This document shows positions 2,953 to 29,298 of a stretch of DNA of 64,000 bases, in pieces. A program made the translations under genes and the position numbers. How positions within the stretch are numbered: position 1 is the stretch's first letter; every line of letters begins with the position of its first letter. The stretch lies in IMG/VR virus record IMGVR_UViG_3300028835_002196, positions 1 to 64,000 of that record. One strand, given 5' to 3'. The notes under the pieces are model-generated. The model saw nothing but the letters and a program-made list of their open reading frames with translations. It made no database searches and was not told the DNA's origin. Origin of the DNA: a virus.

Positions 2953-3291
2953 TTATTTGAATAATTTATACGGGATATTACCCTTTACTCTGTACTCTTT
3001 TGAATTATTCCATGAGAAATATTTTGGTTCCAGTTTCTTTTCCATGGATTTAGTAACATCAACACGACAGGGGATCCTGCGAATATAACAATACGCTCCC
3101 AGGGGAACGTCAGGTTTTCCTTTAACCGTGAAAACAAGCATTGTTGTTTTGATGGTTGAGGTTTTCTCATGGTATTTGATTCTTTCAAATTTCCCACAAT
3201 AAGCCTTTGTTTTGATCAGTTTTCCTTCGGGGTACCGGCTAACAGCACACCCGGACAGGAGAATAAAAAGGATTAATATTTTAGTTTTCAT
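2953..3291 (-). CDS. Small phage lipoprotein
   Basis: 112 aa starting at ATG 3291. A longer upstream frame exists but has no secretion logic before MKTKILILFILLSGC. The lipobox LSGC places the lipidated Cys at residue 15, so the product is probably an envelope lipoprotein. The mature part has three further Cys (AYCGKF, GAYCYI, IPCRVD), possibly disulfide-bonded. The start overlaps the preceding Tat-leader gene by 11 bp. Last gene of the secreted-protein operon. A superinfection or envelope-modification role is possible but unproven. Confidence 0.75.
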   Translation of the reverse strand: MKTKILILFILLSGCAVSRYPEGKLIKTKAYCGKFERIKYHEKTSTIKTTMLVFTVKGKPDVPLGAYCYIRRIPCRVDVTKSMEKKLEPKYFSWNNSKEYRVKGNIPYKLFK

Positions 3292-3631
3292 TTTTATTTT
3301 TATTTTCCAGAGCAGCTTGAATCCTGAACCATGCCATTTGACTTTGATCAACAGCCTTTTTAATAGCCTCGATTCCAACTGTTCCTGTGCGATAGATATG
3401 TGTATAGTTAAGTGCCCAGCCCGGGGGATTTTGTAAAATTTCCAGATCTCCCACGCAAAGTTGTCCCGGAGCATAATATTTTGTAACACCATTCTTTCGT
3501 ACATAAGCCCATAGGCCTTCGCCACATCTGATTTCAGGAACCTCTTCGGCCAACACCTTAGCAACCGCAGGAGCAAAGATCAGCCCCAGGGTAACTACAC
3601 TTGTTTTTTTAAAAAAATCTCTTCTATCCAT
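3281..3631 (-). CDS. Tat-leader secreted protein 1
   Basis: 116 aa from ATG 3631. The N-terminus MDRRDFFKKTSVVTLGLIF carries a twin-arginine motif (RR-x-F-F-K) and a hydrophobic stretch ending AKVLA before acidic residues, like a Tat signal peptide. Two Cys (IRCGEG, GQLCVG) could form a disulfide outside the cytoplasm. It shares leader design with the genes at 3624, 4276 and 5051. The start eight codons further upstream would put extra residues before the RR motif and is less likely. Function unknown. Confidence 0.7.
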   Translation of the reverse strand: MDRRDFFKKTSVVTLGLIFAPAVAKVLAEEVPEIRCGEGLWAYVRKNGVTKYYAPGQLCVGDLEILQNPPGWALNYTHIYRTGTVGIEAIKKAVDQSQMAWFRIQAALENKNKNEN

Positions 3632-3857
3632 TGGGCCGGTTTTTAAAACATTCATTATAAGTTAATGGATATTGCATAATAAGATCATTATTTGTAATAA
3701 GACCAAATCCTGTTCTTCTACACTTAGGCACGATAACCCCATACAATACTTTTTGGGGCTTTATAGCCTTTTTAATAACCCCCGCAACAACCGCAGGAGC
3801 AATTATCACTCCCAGGGATGCAATGCCTATTTTTTGAAAAAACTTTCTTCTATCCAT
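3624..3857 (-). CDS. Tat-leader secreted protein 2
   Basis: 77 aa. The leader MDRRKFFQKIGIASLGVII has the RR-x-F-F motif and a hydrophobic core, then APAVVAGVIKKA. The C-terminal part contains MQYPLTYNECFKN, matching EYPLTYKESYKPS in the product at 5051-5527, so these two are paralogues beyond the leader. Its start shares bases with the stop of the next gene. Function unknown. Confidence 0.7.
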   Translation of the reverse strand: MDRRKFFQKIGIASLGVIIAPAVVAGVIKKAIKPQKVLYGVIVPKCRRTGFGLITNNDLIMQYPLTYNECFKNRPNG

Positions 3858-4060
3858 TACTCATTCATATAGGATAAATCCTCATGATCAGATAATGATT
3901 CCAATAAAAGATCTAGTGTTCTACAACCAAACCGGTCCTTTTCTCCAACATATAATATATAATTATAAGTAAGATCGTCATGTATTCTTATAGATACATT
4001 CTTTAGACCTTTTTCTTTAGCTGACTTAAAAATATCAGCTATCACTTTTACTTTTTCCAT
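3857..4060 (-). CDS. Small protein of unknown function
   Basis: 67 aa from ATG 4060 (MEKVKVIADIFKSAKEKG...), chosen over a start 16 codons upstream because the palindromic leader ATTGTAAAAACAATG sits on this ATG, as at two other genes. An amphipathic helix is followed by beta-like NVSIRIHDDLTYNYILYVGEK. No signal peptide, so cytoplasmic. Function unknown. Confidence 0.6.
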   Translation of the reverse strand: MEKVKVIADIFKSAKEKGLKNVSIRIHDDLTYNYILYVGEKDRFGCRTLDLLLESLSDHEDLSYMNE

Positions 4061-4072
4061 TGTTTTTACAAT
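4058..4072 (-). promoter_or_regulatory. Palindromic start-codon leader (copy 1)
   Basis: ATTGTAAAAACAATG on the minus strand: a 5-bp inverted repeat ATTGT/ACAAT around AAAA, ending inside the start codon. Identical 15-mers occur at 10434-10448 and 59352-59366, each on the start of an unrelated gene. It may be a translation-initiation element for this phage. Confidence 0.4.
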
Positions 4073-4077
4073 TTTGT

Positions 4078-4254
4078 TTATTTTCCTTTCTCGTGATCGT
4101 CCCGCCAAAACTTTTTTCTTGCCCGCGTTGCTTTATCAAAAGTTTTCAGGCAATCTGTCAGATATTCTGCAAGAACAAAATCGGGAGTATCACTACCATT
4201 TTCAAGACTGTTCTTGTTTATTAGGTCCTGCAATTCTTTTCTGAATTTTTCCAT
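4078..4254 (-). CDS. Conserved 58-aa phage protein
   Basis: 58 aa (MEKFRKELQDLINKNSLEN...). The segment NSLENGSDTPDFVLAEYLTDCL is close to a small conserved protein found across many phages and prophages; the ensuing FDKATRARKKF helix is also typical. Cytoplasmic, likely helical; function unknown. It lies in the correct strand and spacing between genes at 3857 and 4276. Confidence 0.75.
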   Translation of the reverse strand: MEKFRKELQDLINKNSLENGSDTPDFVLAEYLTDCLKTFDKATRARKKFWRDDHEKGK

Positions 4255-4275
4255 TTTGTTTGTTTTTGACGCTTG

Positions 4276-4611
4276 TTACTTGTAAGAATTATTATTTTTC
4301 CATCCTTTTCTATCAGTAATTTTTAATAATTCAATCATATCCATATGACCATATAGTTTTCGTAGGGTTTCAAAAACTTCATCACTATAAACATCCTGAA
4401 CCATTCTTATCTCTAAATGTTCTTGATACATCTTCCTGGCCTGTTTAATATGCCACTCCCTTCTGAGTTGTTTTATTCTCTCATCGAGCTCTTTTATATT
4501 AAAGCCCGGTAAACCTGGTTGTTCAGATATAGCCTTAATAACAACACCAGGAAGAAGGGCTGCCCCTGCAAGGGTAGCACCTATGTTCTTAAAAAACTTT
4601 CTTCTTTTCAT
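4276..4611 (-). CDS. Tat-leader secreted protein 3
   Basis: 111 aa. The leader MKRRKFFKNIGATLAGAALL has the RR-x-F-F-K motif, a hydrophobic core and PGVVIKA. The mature part is charged and helical (ELDERIKQLRREWHIKQARKM), unlike the other three Tat-leader proteins. The start overlaps the end of the upstream gene by 23 bp. Function unknown. Confidence 0.7.
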   Translation of the reverse strand: MKRRKFFKNIGATLAGAALLPGVVIKAISEQPGLPGFNIKELDERIKQLRREWHIKQARKMYQEHLEIRMVQDVYSDEVFETLRKLYGHMDMIELLKITDRKGWKNNNSYK

Positions 4612-4852
4612 TTTTTGCCATATAATTTCTAAAATCTCGTGACATGTTTACAAGATTTTTTACAGTTTCTTTTTTTCGATCCTCTGTAAACCCCCCTGAT
4701 TCTAATGAATCAATAGTCTTATTTAAGGTTTGTAAAAATTTATATTTAAAACCGTAAAAAGTCCAGCATTTAGGCATTTGATATAAAACATTCACATTAC
4801 CCCGGAAGATATCTGCTACCGTTCCTTTTAAGCAATATAGCCATTTATCCAT
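4589..4852 (-). CDS. Small protein of unknown function
   Basis: 87 aa from ATG 4852 (MDKWLYCLKGTVADIF...), giving an 8-bp overlap with the stop of the upstream gene, the normal overlap here; a start 27 codons earlier would overlap deeply. Helical C-terminus with KKETVKNLVNMSRDF. No signal or known motif. Confidence 0.55.
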   Translation of the reverse strand: MDKWLYCLKGTVADIFRGNVNVLYQMPKCWTFYGFKYKFLQTLNKTIDSLESGGFTEDRKKETVKNLVNMSRDFRNYMAKNEKKKVF

Positions 4853-5042
4853 CAAGATTGCTTTTAGATTCTGACATTGACATAGTTGGTCTTGTATCCC
4901 TGTACATATATTGTATAAGGGCTTTATTAGCATCTTCAGCAGTTGTTATTAACTGATCGATCACCTCGAGGGGATCTTCGCCTCTGACCAACATCTGAAC
5001 AACTGTATTAAAAAGTGCAGATGTTTTATATTCTTCTGTCAT
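4845..5042 (-). CDS. Small conserved-looking phage protein
   Basis: 65 aa from ATG 5042, nine bases after the upstream stop (MTEEYKTSALFNTVVQM...). The segment LVRGEDPLEVIDQLI followed by EDANKALIQYM looks like a two-helix protein seen in other Bacteroidota phages. Cytoplasmic; function unknown. Confidence 0.6.
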   Translation of the reverse strand: MTEEYKTSALFNTVVQMLVRGEDPLEVIDQLITTAEDANKALIQYMYRDTRPTMSMSESKSNLDG

Positions 5043-5050
5043 TTGTCTGA

Positions 5051-5527
5051 TTATTTTTGTTTTATAGGAAACAATACACTGTCCCATAGTCTTAACTTTG
5101 TTCTGGAAAGACTTGCTTTATCTATTAAAAAAGTAATTCCATTACCGGCACCAGCTCTAGGAATATCTTCATTAACAACTATTATAGAATGTCCGGGATT
5201 TTCCTCTTTATGAGAAGGGGGAGGAGTCTTGCTTTCCTCTGAAAACGAATTTGAAAAGACTAAAAACACCTCTTTTTTTCTAATAACAGGAAATTCCTCT
5301 AATTTATTACATGGAATTATAGTCACTTCATTTTCTTTTAATACAGTAACAAAGCCTATTATAAAATCATGGGAAGGTTTATAAGATTCCTTGTAAGTTA
5401 AGGGATATTCAAAAATTTTCGGATCCACGGGAGGCTCAAGTGATTTGAATGCACCTAATACTTTTGGGGTAACACTAGCCCCCACACCTATGCAAATTAT
5501 ATTAGCTAAAAATTTTCTTCTTTCCAT
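5051..5527 (-). CDS. Tat-leader secreted protein 4
   Basis: 158 aa. The leader MERRKFLANIICIGVGASV has the canonical RR-x-F-L form, then TPKVLGAF. It shares YPLTYxExxK with the 77-aa product at 3624-3857. The mature domain is beta-rich (FIIGFVTVLKENEVTIIPC, EVFLVFSN, HSIIVVNEDIPRAG). Longest of the four Tat-leader proteins. Its start is one base from the upstream stop. Function unknown. Confidence 0.7.
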   Translation of the reverse strand: MERRKFLANIICIGVGASVTPKVLGAFKSLEPPVDPKIFEYPLTYKESYKPSHDFIIGFVTVLKENEVTIIPCNKLEEFPVIRKKEVFLVFSNSFSEESKTPPPSHKEENPGHSIIVVNEDIPRAGAGNGITFLIDKASLSRTKLRLWDSVLFPIKQK

Positions 5528-8670: not shown

Positions 8671-8740
8671 AAAACTAAACTTTACTTTACTATACAACGC
8701 CAGACGGAACTACACGGTACTATGCGATACACCACTAAAC
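8671..8740. repeat. Pentamer-phased array A (NNNAC x14)
   Basis: Fourteen consecutive 5-nt units. Twelve end in AC and two in GC (aacgc, tatgc); the first three bases of each unit vary freely. On the minus strand the unit is GTNNN. It begins aaaac taaac tttac tttac, nearly the same opening as arrays B-D. It lies just upstream of the deoxyribosyltransferase-like start codon. Confidence 0.9.
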
Positions 8741-8775
8741 TCAATATTTTATTTAATTCCTTCAATTCTAATTAT
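8741..8775. repeat. 35-nt AT-rich spacer S1
   Basis: Separates arrays A and B and keeps the 5-nt register (35 = 7 x 5). It differs from spacer S2 (8876-8910) at two positions. On the minus strand one frame reads LELKELNKILS with a stop in the adjoining pentamer, so it may be the relic of a gene end. Confidence 0.85.
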
Positions 8776-8875
8776 AAAACTATACTTTACTATACGCTAC
8801 CTCACACCACAAGACCTCACAATACTCAACATCACCCTACTCGACGATACGTCACACCACCATACAGCACTCAAC
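8776..8875. repeat. Pentamer-phased array B (NNNAC x20)
   Basis: Twenty consecutive units, all ending in AC. The first eleven are near-identical in order to the first eleven units of array C (three differing positions), after which the two arrays diverge completely while keeping the AC register. Confidence 0.92.
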
Positions 8876-8910
8876 TCAATATTTTATTTAATTTCTTTAA
8901 TTCTAATTAT
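8876..8910. repeat. 35-nt AT-rich spacer S2
   Basis: 33 of 35 bases identical to S1 at 8741-8775, at a distance of 135 bp (27 pentamers). With the following units it forms a duplicated block of about 90 bp. Confidence 0.85.
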
Positions 8911-9070
8911 AAAACTATACTTTACTTTACGCTACCTCACACCACAAGACTTCACGATACTCAACAACACTCTACTTGACAAAACTTTACATCACAAAAC
9001 GTAACTTTACAACACTACACCCTACCCTACAAAACCACACAACACCATGCTCAACAGCACGGTACATTAC
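8911..9070. repeat. Pentamer-phased array C (NNNAC x32)
   Basis: Thirty-two consecutive units, 31 ending in AC and one in GC (catgc). The last unit, attac, contains the stop codon of the RAMP-like gene on the minus strand, so the array abuts the coding region with no gap. Confidence 0.92.
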
Positions 9071-9642
9071 TTAAATTCTTTAATTTTTTCAGCAACAAAT
9101 CTTCCAAACATACCATTGCAAGTAGGCCTGAAACTTCCAATCCCACAATGCGTACCAGCATATTTCAACACATCTTCTATTGTTGGCTTTGTAATCGTAT
9201 CATTATCAATCCACAATTCAAAATCAACCTTTAAATTGAGCCACTTGGGCCTGATCACGATAACTCTTGCCCCGGCTTTACGATTCCAGACGCTTCGCTT
9301 ATCTATAATATCCCAGGGGGGAAGCCATATTTTTTCCGGTTTAACAAAGAACATAGCTGCAACAATATTTTTCATAGACTTACGGCTATTTCCAACCTTC
9401 GCCTTCAAGTATGCTCCTGCATTGATCATTGCTCCACGCAAATGTTCGGATGGTAAATAATGCTTTTTTTCCTTCATATCGTAGTAAGAATGAAACTCAG
9501 CCCTGACATTATCAGGTTGAGAAACCTCTGGTCGTTCAATGATCGCACCACGTCTTTTTTCCCATTCGTCAAGGGTTTCGTCATCCATGCGATGTTGCAT
9601 GTATGGCGTTGTGCCAATAATTTCTACTTTGTACTTCTTCAT
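9067..9642 (-). CDS. Conserved phage protein, RAMP/Cas7-like candidate
   Basis: 191 aa from ATG 9642. The GTG start further upstream would add residues translated from array D and is rejected. It opens with a beta strand VEIIGTTPYMQHR, has YLPSEHLRGAMINAGAYLKAK in the middle, and ends GTHCGIGSFRPTCNGMFGRF. This layout (TP-L/M-x-H start, LP-x-x-L-x-x-A core, late G-x-G-x-x-RP) matches a widespread phage family of unknown function whose glycine-rich end recalls RAMP proteins such as Cas7. The RAMP relation is my inference. It is the only gene bracketed by pentamer arrays on both sides. Confidence 0.65.
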   Translation of the reverse strand: MKKYKVEIIGTTPYMQHRMDDETLDEWEKRRGAIIERPEVSQPDNVRAEFHSYYDMKEKKHYLPSEHLRGAMINAGAYLKAKVGNSRKSMKNIVAAMFFVKPEKIWLPPWDIIDKRSVWNRKAGARVIVIRPKWLNLKVDFELWIDNDTITKPTIEDVLKYAGTHCGIGSFRPTCNGMFGRFVAEKIKEFK

Positions 9643-9657
9643 AATATTTGTATTAGT

Positions 9658-9787
9658 TAAACAAAACTTTACTTTACTAGACGACACATCACTGAACTGT
9701 ACTTCACAAAACAATACGCTACTGGACGCTACTTGACTAAACTGCACCCTACTCTACTATACCCCACATTACGCCACAGAACGAGAC
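9658..9787. repeat. Pentamer-phased array D (NNNAC x26)
   Basis: Twenty-six consecutive units, all ending in AC, filling the gap between the RAMP-like gene start and the small gene at 9795. On the transcribed minus strand it reads GTNNN repeated and would be the 5' leader of the RAMP-like mRNA, ending 15 nt before its ATG. The variable triplets show no obvious order. Confidence 0.93.
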
Positions 9788-17824: not shown

Positions 17825-19404
17825 ACCTGTTAGCTGGTGCTGGTGGAACTACCACCGGTGCATTAGCTGTTAAGGGAATTATAGTTGTCTGGGCATTGAA
17901 TCATTCCAAAGAAGCTATATTCACTCACCAGGTCAATCACCCCAACACCGAACATTTCCACGCTGATCTGGCAGAAATGGATGTAACTAAACTCTGCCCG
18001 GTTGATGGTTTATTTGCAGGTCTGGAATGCACGAACTTCAGCAATGCCAAAGGAGGTTTATCAAGAGATGCTGACAGCAGAATGTTAGCATACGAACTGG
18101 ACAAATATATAATTCATTGCCTGCCCAAGTATATAATGATTGAGAATGTAAGAGAGTTTCTGGATTGGGGACCACTGAGAATTAAGGAAGATCAAGCCAG
18201 ATCGACCAAAAAATACTCTGCCTTAGCTATAGTCGAAAAAGGTAAGAAGAAAGGTGAATATGTTATTATTCCAATCAAAGAACGCAAAAAAGAATATTAT
18301 AATAAATGGATCGAACACGTTAAAGGTTTGGGATATATAAATTATCAGTATAGAATGTTGAACTCGGCAGATTATGGCTCATTCACCTCCAGGAAGCGTT
18401 ATTTCGGCATTTTTTCCCTGCCCGGTTATCCAATATCATTTCCTTTACAAACTCATCACAGGGACGGAATCAACGGTTTTAAGAAGTGGATGGCATGTAA
18501 GAAAAAGATCGACCTGAAAAATACCGGGGAATCCATGTTCGGCAGGGAATTTAATCTCAATCTACCTAAACAGGTAAGGAAACCATTAGTAAAACGCTCG
18601 ATCAGCAGGATCATTAACGGTATGAAAAAACATTGCCCGGAAATGCTGCAGTACATTGTTAAGTATTATGGATCAGGAGGAGGACAGCACAGCTCGATCA
18701 ACACACCATTGGATACCATTACAACCAAAGCTCGACATGCTCTTGTTACCCTGAAAAGAGAACAATTTATCAGCGAACATTTTTGGGGACAGGATCCTTC
18801 ACAAAAAACGGATAAACCCCTCAACGTGATAACGACAAAAGAATCCAAACAGCTTGTTACGGTTGAAAAAAAACAGTTCATTAACCAGTGTTGGGGAAAC
18901 GATTATAATCATTCCGGAATAAAAGAACCCCTGAAAACAATAACGACTACTAATAAGCATCAGCTTGTTACTATTGAAAAGCAACAATTTCTCACCCAAT
19001 ATTATGGCAGGGATAATGCCAATCAGAATCTTAAAGAACCAATAAGAACTATCACCACTTGGAACACTCACCGGTTGGTCACAGTCGAAAAACAACAATT
19101 CATATCGACATACTTTGGTAAAAGCGGAGCACATTCTCTTGATAAACCCTTGGGAACTATTACAACAGAACCCAAACATGCTCTTACAACTGTCCTGGCT
19201 AATGGAGATTTTGATATTAAGGTACGTTTCCTTACCCCTGCAGAGCTGGGGGATATAACGGGATTCCCGAAAAATTATCAATGGTACGGTAGTAATAGGT
19301 TGCGAATATGGATGATAGGCAATGCTGTTCCTATTCCAATGGCTAAGGCACTTATTGAGCAAATTAAAATCGAATTTATTAACCTTAAACCCATTAAATC
19401 ATGA
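17815..19404 (+). CDS. C5-cytosine DNA methyltransferase with five C-terminal repeats
   Basis: About 529 aa if started at ATT 17815. Motif I (ILDLLAGAGGTTTG) lies upstream of the first ATG (17896), so that ATG cannot be the true start; the frame is open back to a stop at 17797-17799 with no ATG, GTG or TTG. Motif IV is GLECTNFSNAKGG with the catalytic Cys (about residue 72) but E in place of the usual P; motif VI is MIENVREF; motif VIII QYRMLNSADYGSFTSRKRY; motif X GNAVPIPMA. Between VIII and X are five ~40-aa repeats (PLxTITTxxxHxLVTxExxQF). Methylates phage DNA, probably against host restriction. Confidence 0.8.
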   Translation: MILDLLAGAGGTTTGALAVKGIIVVWALNHSKEAIFTHQVNHPNTEHFHADLAEMDVTKLCPVDGLFAGLECTNFSNAKGGLSRDADSRMLAYELDKYIIHCLPKYIMIENVREFLDWGPLRIKEDQARSTKKYSALAIVEKGKKKGEYVIIPIKERKKEYYNKWIEHVKGLGYINYQYRMLNSADYGSFTSRKRYFGIFSLPGYPISFPLQTHHRDGINGFKKWMACKKKIDLKNTGESMFGREFNLNLPKQVRKPLVKRSISRIINGMKKHCPEMLQYIVKYYGSGGGQHSSINTPLDTITTKARHALVTLKREQFISEHFWGQDPSQKTDKPLNVITTKESKQLVTVEKKQFINQCWGNDYNHSGIKEPLKTITTTNKHQLVTIEKQQFLTQYYGRDNANQNLKEPIRTITTWNTHRLVTVEKQQFISTYFGKSGAHSLDKPLGTITTEPKHALTTVLANGDFDIKVRFLTPAELGDITGFPKNYQWYGSNRLRIWMIGNAVPIPMAKALIEQIKIEFINLKPIKS

Positions 19405-28234: not shown

Positions 28235-29005
28235 TTACTGATTAAAAAGGTCATTCTGAAGAAATTCTATAATCCGAAGATTAGCCAAATTACAATAAAA
28301 TAATGAATTATCACTCCCACAATATAGCCTGTTAAGCTTTAATGCAGTAATAGCAGTTGTACCACTTCCCATAAACGGAGCATACACTATCTGCCCGGGA
28401 TCCGTACTGAACATTATTGCCCGGCCAACTAATTTTTCAGGCATTTGAGCCAAATGAGCTTTCTCCCGGGTCCCTAGTTTTAAAATAGCCTCCGGATGTA
28501 CTATTGACCCAGCGTAAATAGGCCTGATATCATCCCAATAATCCAGTAATTGTCCTCTTTGATTCTCTTTTCGCTTGGGATTCCAGGGAACTACACCCTG
28601 CCTGGTTTCTGCATAGGTATTAAATATGTAATCTTTTGTTTTCGCATAGAACAATATCGGTTGCGTGCTGTTCCAAAAACTTCTCTTTGTATGATCACCG
28701 GTAACATTTTTCCATTTAATCAGATTTAGAAATATCCCATGTTTGTCCATTAACGGAAATGTTTTTGACAGATTCCGATCGAGCGTCATTAAGTAAAAAC
28801 TGCCGGTAGGTTTTAATATTCGCCAGCACTCACTTATCCACTGATCACACCATTGAAAATAATCCGTCCTTTTATCGTTAGATCCCCTGTATTTTTTTCC
28901 AATATTGAAGGGAGGATCTGCGAATATCATATCAACACTTTCGCTGTGCATGTTATACAGTGCATCTAACACGTCTTTATTAAATATTGTGTCTATGTAA
29001 TTCAT
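28235..29005 (-). CDS. Beta-class N4/N6 DNA methyltransferase
   Basis: 256 aa. DPPFNIGKKY (motif IV, residues 30-39) precedes FMGSGTTAITALKLNR (motif I, near the C-terminus), the permuted order of beta-class amino-methyltransferases. KWKNVTGDHTKRSFWNSTQP is the usual region around the catalytic core. Could methylate adenine or cytosine N4. Adjacent to the Dam-like gene. Confidence 0.88.
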   Translation of the reverse strand: MNYIDTIFNKDVLDALYNMHSESVDMIFADPPFNIGKKYRGSNDKRTDYFQWCDQWISECWRILKPTGSFYLMTLDRNLSKTFPLMDKHGIFLNLIKWKNVTGDHTKRSFWNSTQPILFYAKTKDYIFNTYAETRQGVVPWNPKRKENQRGQLLDYWDDIRPIYAGSIVHPEAILKLGTREKAHLAQMPEKLVGRAIMFSTDPGQIVYAPFMGSGTTAITALKLNRLYCGSDNSLFYCNLANLRIIEFLQNDLFNQ

Positions 29006-29007
29006 GT

Positions 29008-29298
29008 TTACCTATAAGTCGTATAACCAAGTATTTTTAATTGCGTGGGATGAAAAGTATGTATCTGCCCGGTTTCTGCCTCCTCGACAATAGCCGTGGT
29101 TATTGTATTAACTCCCACAACCTCCTCTTCACTATTCATTACAGGATTACTTTCTTGCCCCCAATGGTGAAGGTATCCCTTTAATTCACGAAAATCCGGC
29201 AGTTCTTCTTCATCTTTGCCTCCAGCTATATCTAACGCTCGTATTTCCTGTTCTTCTTCGGTCAAATCTATATTTACACTAACCAATAATTTTCTCAT
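29008..29298 (-). CDS. Small acidic protein of unknown function
   Basis: 96 aa, acidic in the N-terminal half (LTEEEQEIRALDIAGGKDEE). The C-terminal end (AETGQIHTFHPTQLKILGYT) looks like a small beta domain of phage proteins. Co-transcribed with neighbours. Confidence 0.55.
   Translation of the reverse strand: MRKLLVSVNIDLTEEEQEIRALDIAGGKDEEELPDFRELKGYLHHWGQESNPVMNSEEEVVGVNTITTAIVEEAETGQIHTFHPTQLKILGYTTYR

Follow-up and report, generated by a model that had tools for sequence, protein, structure and literature searches.

The window, i.e. the whole stretch of 64,000 nucleotides analysed here (IMG/VR virus record IMGVR_UViG_3300028835_002196, positions 1 to 64,000), encodes on its minus strand a 191-residue protein bracketed by four arrays of the pentamer GTNNN, in gene sense. 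Only the GT is fixed over the 92 units of these arrays, a few of which carry GC in its place on the gene strand (Table 1). That arrays abut both the stop codon and the leader of the gene, as stated in the original prediction, holds at the nucleotide level, and the fixed five-nucleotide step which it proposed corresponds to the array period of 5.

Table 1. Features of the locus (arrays called in gene sense, broken units allowed)
Feature	Position	Strand	Details
Vipr-like RAMP protein, phrog_4652	9067..9642	-	191 aa; RRM core and glycine-rich loop GIGSFRP
Upstream GT/NNN array	9658..9787	-	26 units; 3' end 15 nt from the ATG; candidate guide RNA(s)
Downstream array 1	8911..9070	-	32 units (31 GT, 1 GC); starts on the gene's stop codon
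Downstream array 2	8776..8875	-	20 units; 3' part duplicates the 3' part of array 1
Downstream array 3	8671..8740	-	14 units (12 GT, 2 GC)
AT-rich segment 3' of array 1	8876..8910	-	recurs 3' of array 2; candidate 3' tail of guide RNA
AT-rich segment 3' of array 2	8741..8775	-	candidate 3' tail
Terminator-like hairpin	9042..9065	-	made of the first post-stop units; 40-nt fold z -3.8

The combination of arrays and gene is confirmed as a real feature of the window. All 16 dinucleotides were scanned at periods 3-12 over the whole window, and AC on the plus strand, which is GT on the gene strand, stood out with a period of 5, in runs of 27, 26 and 20 units; any other dinucleotide or period gave runs of at most 8 units, except at period 10, where these arrays are echoed. 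The window contains 52 matches to an 8-unit pattern and 100 dinucleotide-preserving shuffles of it contain none, and in the 76,246-base virus record from which the window is taken a 9-unit pattern is confined to the array region. The three N positions show entropies of 1.85, 1.86 and 1.87 bits and are hence truly variable, and two 135-nt repeat copies within the arrays agree in GT at all 34 sites and differ in NNN at 11 of 48. The hairpin next to the stop codon is strong, yet leaves the GY phase intact. Rfam gave no match near the window arrays and, on six relatives, tmRNA and tRNAs and nothing else, while promoter-like sites were not more numerous than in shuffles. Elsewhere in the window, four neighbouring small ORFs (3281-5527, minus strand) share similar leaders, MxRR(K/D)F(F/L)..., resembling twin-arginine signal peptides, and a 502-residue ORF with repeated internal segments (17896-19404, plus strand) is presumably a DNA cytosine methyltransferase.

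The protein opens with MKKYKVEIIGTTPYMQHRMDD, containing TPYMQH (roughly TP-x-M-x-H), and carries GIGSFRP close to its C-terminus, so that the TP-L/M-x-H opening and the G-x-G-x-x-RP segment from which a RAMP/Cas7 fold had been proposed are both present. It matches phrog_4652 (unknown function, E 8.3e-17) and no Pfam family. Its AlphaFold2 model (pLDDT 93.7, pTM 0.88, from a 38-sequence alignment) was compared with known structures, and among the best 50 Foldseek matches listed every one is a chain of a Cas7/Csm3-kind CRISPR complex (best E 8e-7). VIA places Csm3 first (Z 11.6, 160 residues, rmsd 4.0), the listed matches being likewise CRISPR RAMP chains. The proposed fold is thereby supported, the structural check having returned RAMP topology and not a structure devoid of RNA-binding topology. 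Residues G163, G167, R172 and G180, located in and after the glycine-rich loop, are invariant across the 38 sequences.

A profile built from this alignment matches positions 28489-29061 of phage phiSUSP1 (E 1.1e-29), which correspond to the annotated ORF ALH47069.1 and are flanked by GGTNN repeats. From its position we infer that ALH47069.1 is the vipr gene of a preprint of April 2026 on the Viral Interference Programmable Repeat, VIPR (PMC13142463 / bioRxiv 2026.04.26.720920), whose model phage is phiSUSP1 and which also describes a P. fulva system. According to the preprint, phage RAMP proteins (Vipr) bind RNAs of 9-16 GGY/NN repeats, shown experimentally to act as guides, and read double-stranded DNA via the NN pairs, skipping one base in every three (PMC13142463). 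There the consensus is worded as 'GGY/NN or a related consensus (fig. S17)', an invariable, structured 3' tail comes after the repeats, an accessory vap gene is 'typically' found, and the systems are used by phages against each other and proposed as ancestors of CRISPR effectors (PMC13142463). The literature search returned this preprint only, strings of the GTNNN/GGYNN type occurring otherwise just in splice-site papers. The window module almost certainly belongs to the VIPR family, with a variant repeat code. What the original prediction considered a possibly undescribed system has therefore been described already, and the novelty is the guide code, with three variable letters, and not two as in the GGY/NN of the preprint's main text.

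The association between gene and arrays was followed in other genomes from both sides. A 12-unit pattern search gave at least 119 viral stretches in IMG/VR and at least 118 loci in bacterial genomes. Diverse arrays occur in 82 of the viral matches listed, 58 of which encode Vipr, vs none of the 37 that lack such arrays; among the bacterial matches listed, mostly plain tandem repeats, arrays are diverse in 2 of 118 loci and the Vipr family is found in 0 of 118. The remaining 24 of the 82 listed viral loci (L011, L036, L084 and L104 among them) have diverse arrays and no Vipr match in the fetched stretch; some of them may be cut off and others may use a different protein. Searching with the protein only, 13 relative stretches were obtained, all 13 encoding a family member, and a strict scan placed arrays beside 11 of them. 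The twelfth (L254) has shorter GY arrays, and the thirteenth (L263, G012:C1:86810-87343) has a TAA stop within the gene and, nearby, no runs longer than 8 units, so that protein and arrays may be decaying together. By the same strict scan, the relatives' contigs have arrays nowhere except adjoining the Vipr gene. The synteny of array and gene suggested for checking is thus observed, and not a family that everywhere lacks arrays. The carriers are phages, as their IMG/VR records show.

Within 3.5 kb, no neighbour besides Vipr and antisense ORFs, and thus no accessory gene, is common to the clade of the window and its relatives. In other clades a second family of ca. 170 residues adjoins Vipr (L020 11016-11543, L030 5362-5886, L058 2878-3402, L125 8259-8765); it has no convincing Pfam family and is a candidate accessory (vap) protein. 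In another relative (L259, 4619-4983) a run of 73 units is split by TTNNN units every ca. 10-12 units, as if several guides had been fused head to tail.

Concerning the code, most arrays at Vipr loci combine three fixed and two variable bases, the fixed ones being, in gene sense, GGT, GTT or GTC, or else CAC, GAC or AAC, which in those other clades could equally be GTG, GTC or GTT read antisense. The codes track the protein tree, with 19 changes vs a mean of 43.2 under shuffled labels (69 rows). Thirteen rows, that of the window and those of its relatives, group in a single clade (support 100/99) that is GT/NNN throughout, and 513 of its 530 units start with GT or GC. The possibility that array orientation varies relative to the gene was dropped for this clade, GT being in gene sense in all its called arrays. 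The clade sits nested inside GGT/NN rows, hence the third variable base (N3) occupies the place of the former first G.

The relatives also provide the link between arrays and targets. Taken in register, their triplets spell codons of other phages' genes, the first two bases (N1N2) falling on codon positions 1-2 and N3 on the wobble base, the one that published VIPRs skip. The first ten triplets of a guide in L259 read RHDYGRILAI, and all ten residues match the adjacent upstream gene, which weak Pfam matches relate to DNA polymerase X. At the DNA level guide and upstream gene agree at 20 of 30 bases (N1 7/10, N2 10/10, N3 3/10), and all three Arg/Leu codons differ from the guide at base 1 with identical protein. 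The same gene in G014, a phage without Vipr match, agrees with nine units of this guide at all 18 N1N2 bases (0.008 such matches expected by chance in that scan, by arithmetic), and seeding IMG/VR with the guide gave 8 matches, one of them a homologous gene. In L260, triplets reading ERFDYDQGIAL correspond to NRFHYDQGIAW in a downstream exonuclease VIII-like gene (N1N2 17/18); the seed of this guide had 19 matches in IMG/VR, none of them a homologous exonuclease. In a flank test over 30 clade arrays only these two relatives match a flanking gene, each better than 200 of 200 shuffles, and the other 28 arrays gave no such match.

The downstream guide of L254 reads HDRPTEIT and corresponds to QDRPT(D/E)IT of the tail-tip protein J, with N1N2 at 16/16 in three different J genes; searching IMG/VR with its N1N2 bases returned 15 stretches, the three in J and 12 from one near-identical out-of-frame family. 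One tail-tip J ORF (L356, 280-3036, minus strand) contains an N-terminal Hint/intein-like stretch (PF07591, E 0.002, below cut-off). The upstream guide of L254 had 19 matches, 8 of them in an open sense frame, and was set aside as having no clear target. KNQHV is spelled by guides of both L257 and L262, which are identical there at N1N2, and tblastn of these guides in phages gave no match. An apparent match of a G013 guide to G012 (17/18) was discarded, being at about chance level (0.4 expected, by arithmetic).

It should be noted that these matches are individual cases. Over the 2.06 Mb of clade contigs there is no general excess of guide-target matches (455 at 15/18 or better vs 475 in shuffles), and guide matches within the own locus are not above chance overall (27 vs 20 in shuffles). 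Other reading rules tried in local DNA (N2N3, exact NNN, 4-nt and 2-nt steps) gave nothing above shuffles and were abandoned. For the guides of the window itself, the seed of the upstream array had one match in IMG/VR, which failed to extend, and that of array 2 had nine, the extendable ones with at most 7 of 16 further matches; the 2.06 Mb of clade contigs contain no target, tblastn of a 26-residue reading in phages gave a single match at E 9, and the flank test on the window arrays found no matching neighbour gene. With no window-guide targets, no excess of guide matches and no shared accessory gene, the window is placed by homology, by architecture and by the behaviour of its relatives.

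On these grounds we read the window module as a phage-encoded VIPR with a variant guide code, performing RNA-guided DNA binding against competing phages, with a probability of about 80%. The arrays would be transcribed and Vipr subunits would coat the array RNA with a 5-nt step, each gripping a GU or GC. The variable bases of each unit would then face a single 3-nt step of the DNA duplex, and binding would silence the target gene in a competing phage. The earlier idea that a single dinucleotide per unit matters is thus reversed, the dinucleotide being the scaffold and the variable bases carrying the information.

Two versions of this reading differ in N3 only. Our best guess, favoured at barely better than even odds, is that N3 records, and may pair with, the base opposite, with mismatches tolerated. 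The other, to which we give somewhat less than an even chance, is that the published 1-nt skip applies unchanged, N1N2 being read and N3 being a drifted former fixed G, in keeping with the nesting of the clade among GGT/NN rows. Comparing N1N2 alone identified four segments shared between guides; these are identical at N1N2 and have a different N3 in 10 of their 24 units, and the best external target homologs agree fully at N1N2 and poorly at N3 (3/9 for the L259 guide and G014, 4/8 for the L254 guide and J), both of which fit the skip. However, 9 of the 10 N3 differences are synonymous, although transition bias would favour this too, and in the L260 guide all 8 codons with matching residues carry a synonymous N3 base. 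Also against the skip, N3 correlates with the next N1 across the GT, the strongest dependence of 12 position pairs (p 0.004, uncorrected), TpA occurring 16 times vs 31.8 expected. This ratio of 0.50 compares with 0.91 at the unit junction in 3+2 codes and 0.91 at codon junctions in coding DNA of the clade contigs; since the array effect exceeds that of real codon junctions, its cause may instead be that certain bases are preferred next to GU. Read in sense, 22 of the 530 units are stop codons vs 33.1 expected (P 0.008), and 16 vs 21 with tails removed (P 0.089).

A stronger proposal, which we regard as tentative and rather doubtful, is a gapless triplet code, where each 5-nt unit would represent one full target codon and the array would copy a competitor's gene codon by codon; in at least two phages of the clade the module adjoins the phage's own version of the gene targeted under this reading, which differs from the guide. 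If true, this would be the counterpart, based on guide RNA, of homing or marker exclusion, by which the rival's allele is suppressed and the own one escapes.

Farther from the VIPR reading, the original prediction suggested that the array could be the protein's own RNA scaffold. By homology the array RNA would indeed be the protein's own. That it is structural, with no guides and NNN as mere filler, would equally fit a conserved GT with variable NNN; we find it very improbable, as the NNN of relatives spell codons of other phages' genes and the arrays of the homologous systems are guides by experiment (PMC13142463). The other suggestion, a decoy for a host defence, which would have to bind GUNNN RNA, is more improbable still: it has the repetitive sequence in its favour and nothing else that we found, whereas the arrays track one phage protein family, codes differ between clades and no link to defence was seen in the analyses described here. 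A simple tandem repeat or assembly artefact, which the mostly plain bacterial matches to the same pattern might suggest, is contradicted by the variable triplets and the shuffles and already refuted by the independent recurrence in many contigs, and we give it practically no weight.

A clade with a dinucleotide as scaffold and three variable bases separates what Vipr needs for gripping RNA from what it needs for reading DNA, and with GY/NNN arrays the reason for skipping one base can be tested directly. Guides matching DNA polymerase X, a RecE-type exonuclease and the tail-tip protein J, in turn, suggest which targets phages choose in each other.

Regarding known systems, TRAP (the trp RNA-binding attenuation protein) is an oligomeric protein binding RNA triplets that recur every 5 nt. 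The window system is alike in this period, with an unrelated fold, and TRAP RNA has no variable guide. Cas7 forms a filament on guide RNA with a fixed step, and the RAMP fold of the window protein is that of the Cas7/Csm3 subunits of Class 1 CRISPR systems; unlike these, the window has a single small protein and a 5-nt unit whose fixed bases presumably do not pair, and a tandem repeat scan of the window shows no CRISPR-like repeat-spacer array. The closest counterpart is VIPR, from which the window departs in several respects. Its fixed part is GY (mostly GT) with three variable bases, which follows not the exact GGY/NN but only a related consensus. Its runs have 14-32 units (20-32 in three of the four arrays) vs 9-16 repeats, an AT-rich tail is common to array 3' ends, and no accessory gene is common to the clade, unlike the typical vap. 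Among the relatives, L260 with ca. 11 units and L254 with ca. 9 each end in a GC-rich tail (fold z -2.3 for L260). In common with VIPR are the small phage-borne RAMP protein of ca. 20 kDa, with its RRM core and glycine-rich loop, the gene-flanking pentanucleotide arrays mixing fixed and hypervariable bases and, judging from the sequences of the relatives, what appears to be the same 5-nt RNA unit per 3-nt DNA step, with the guide in wobble phase.
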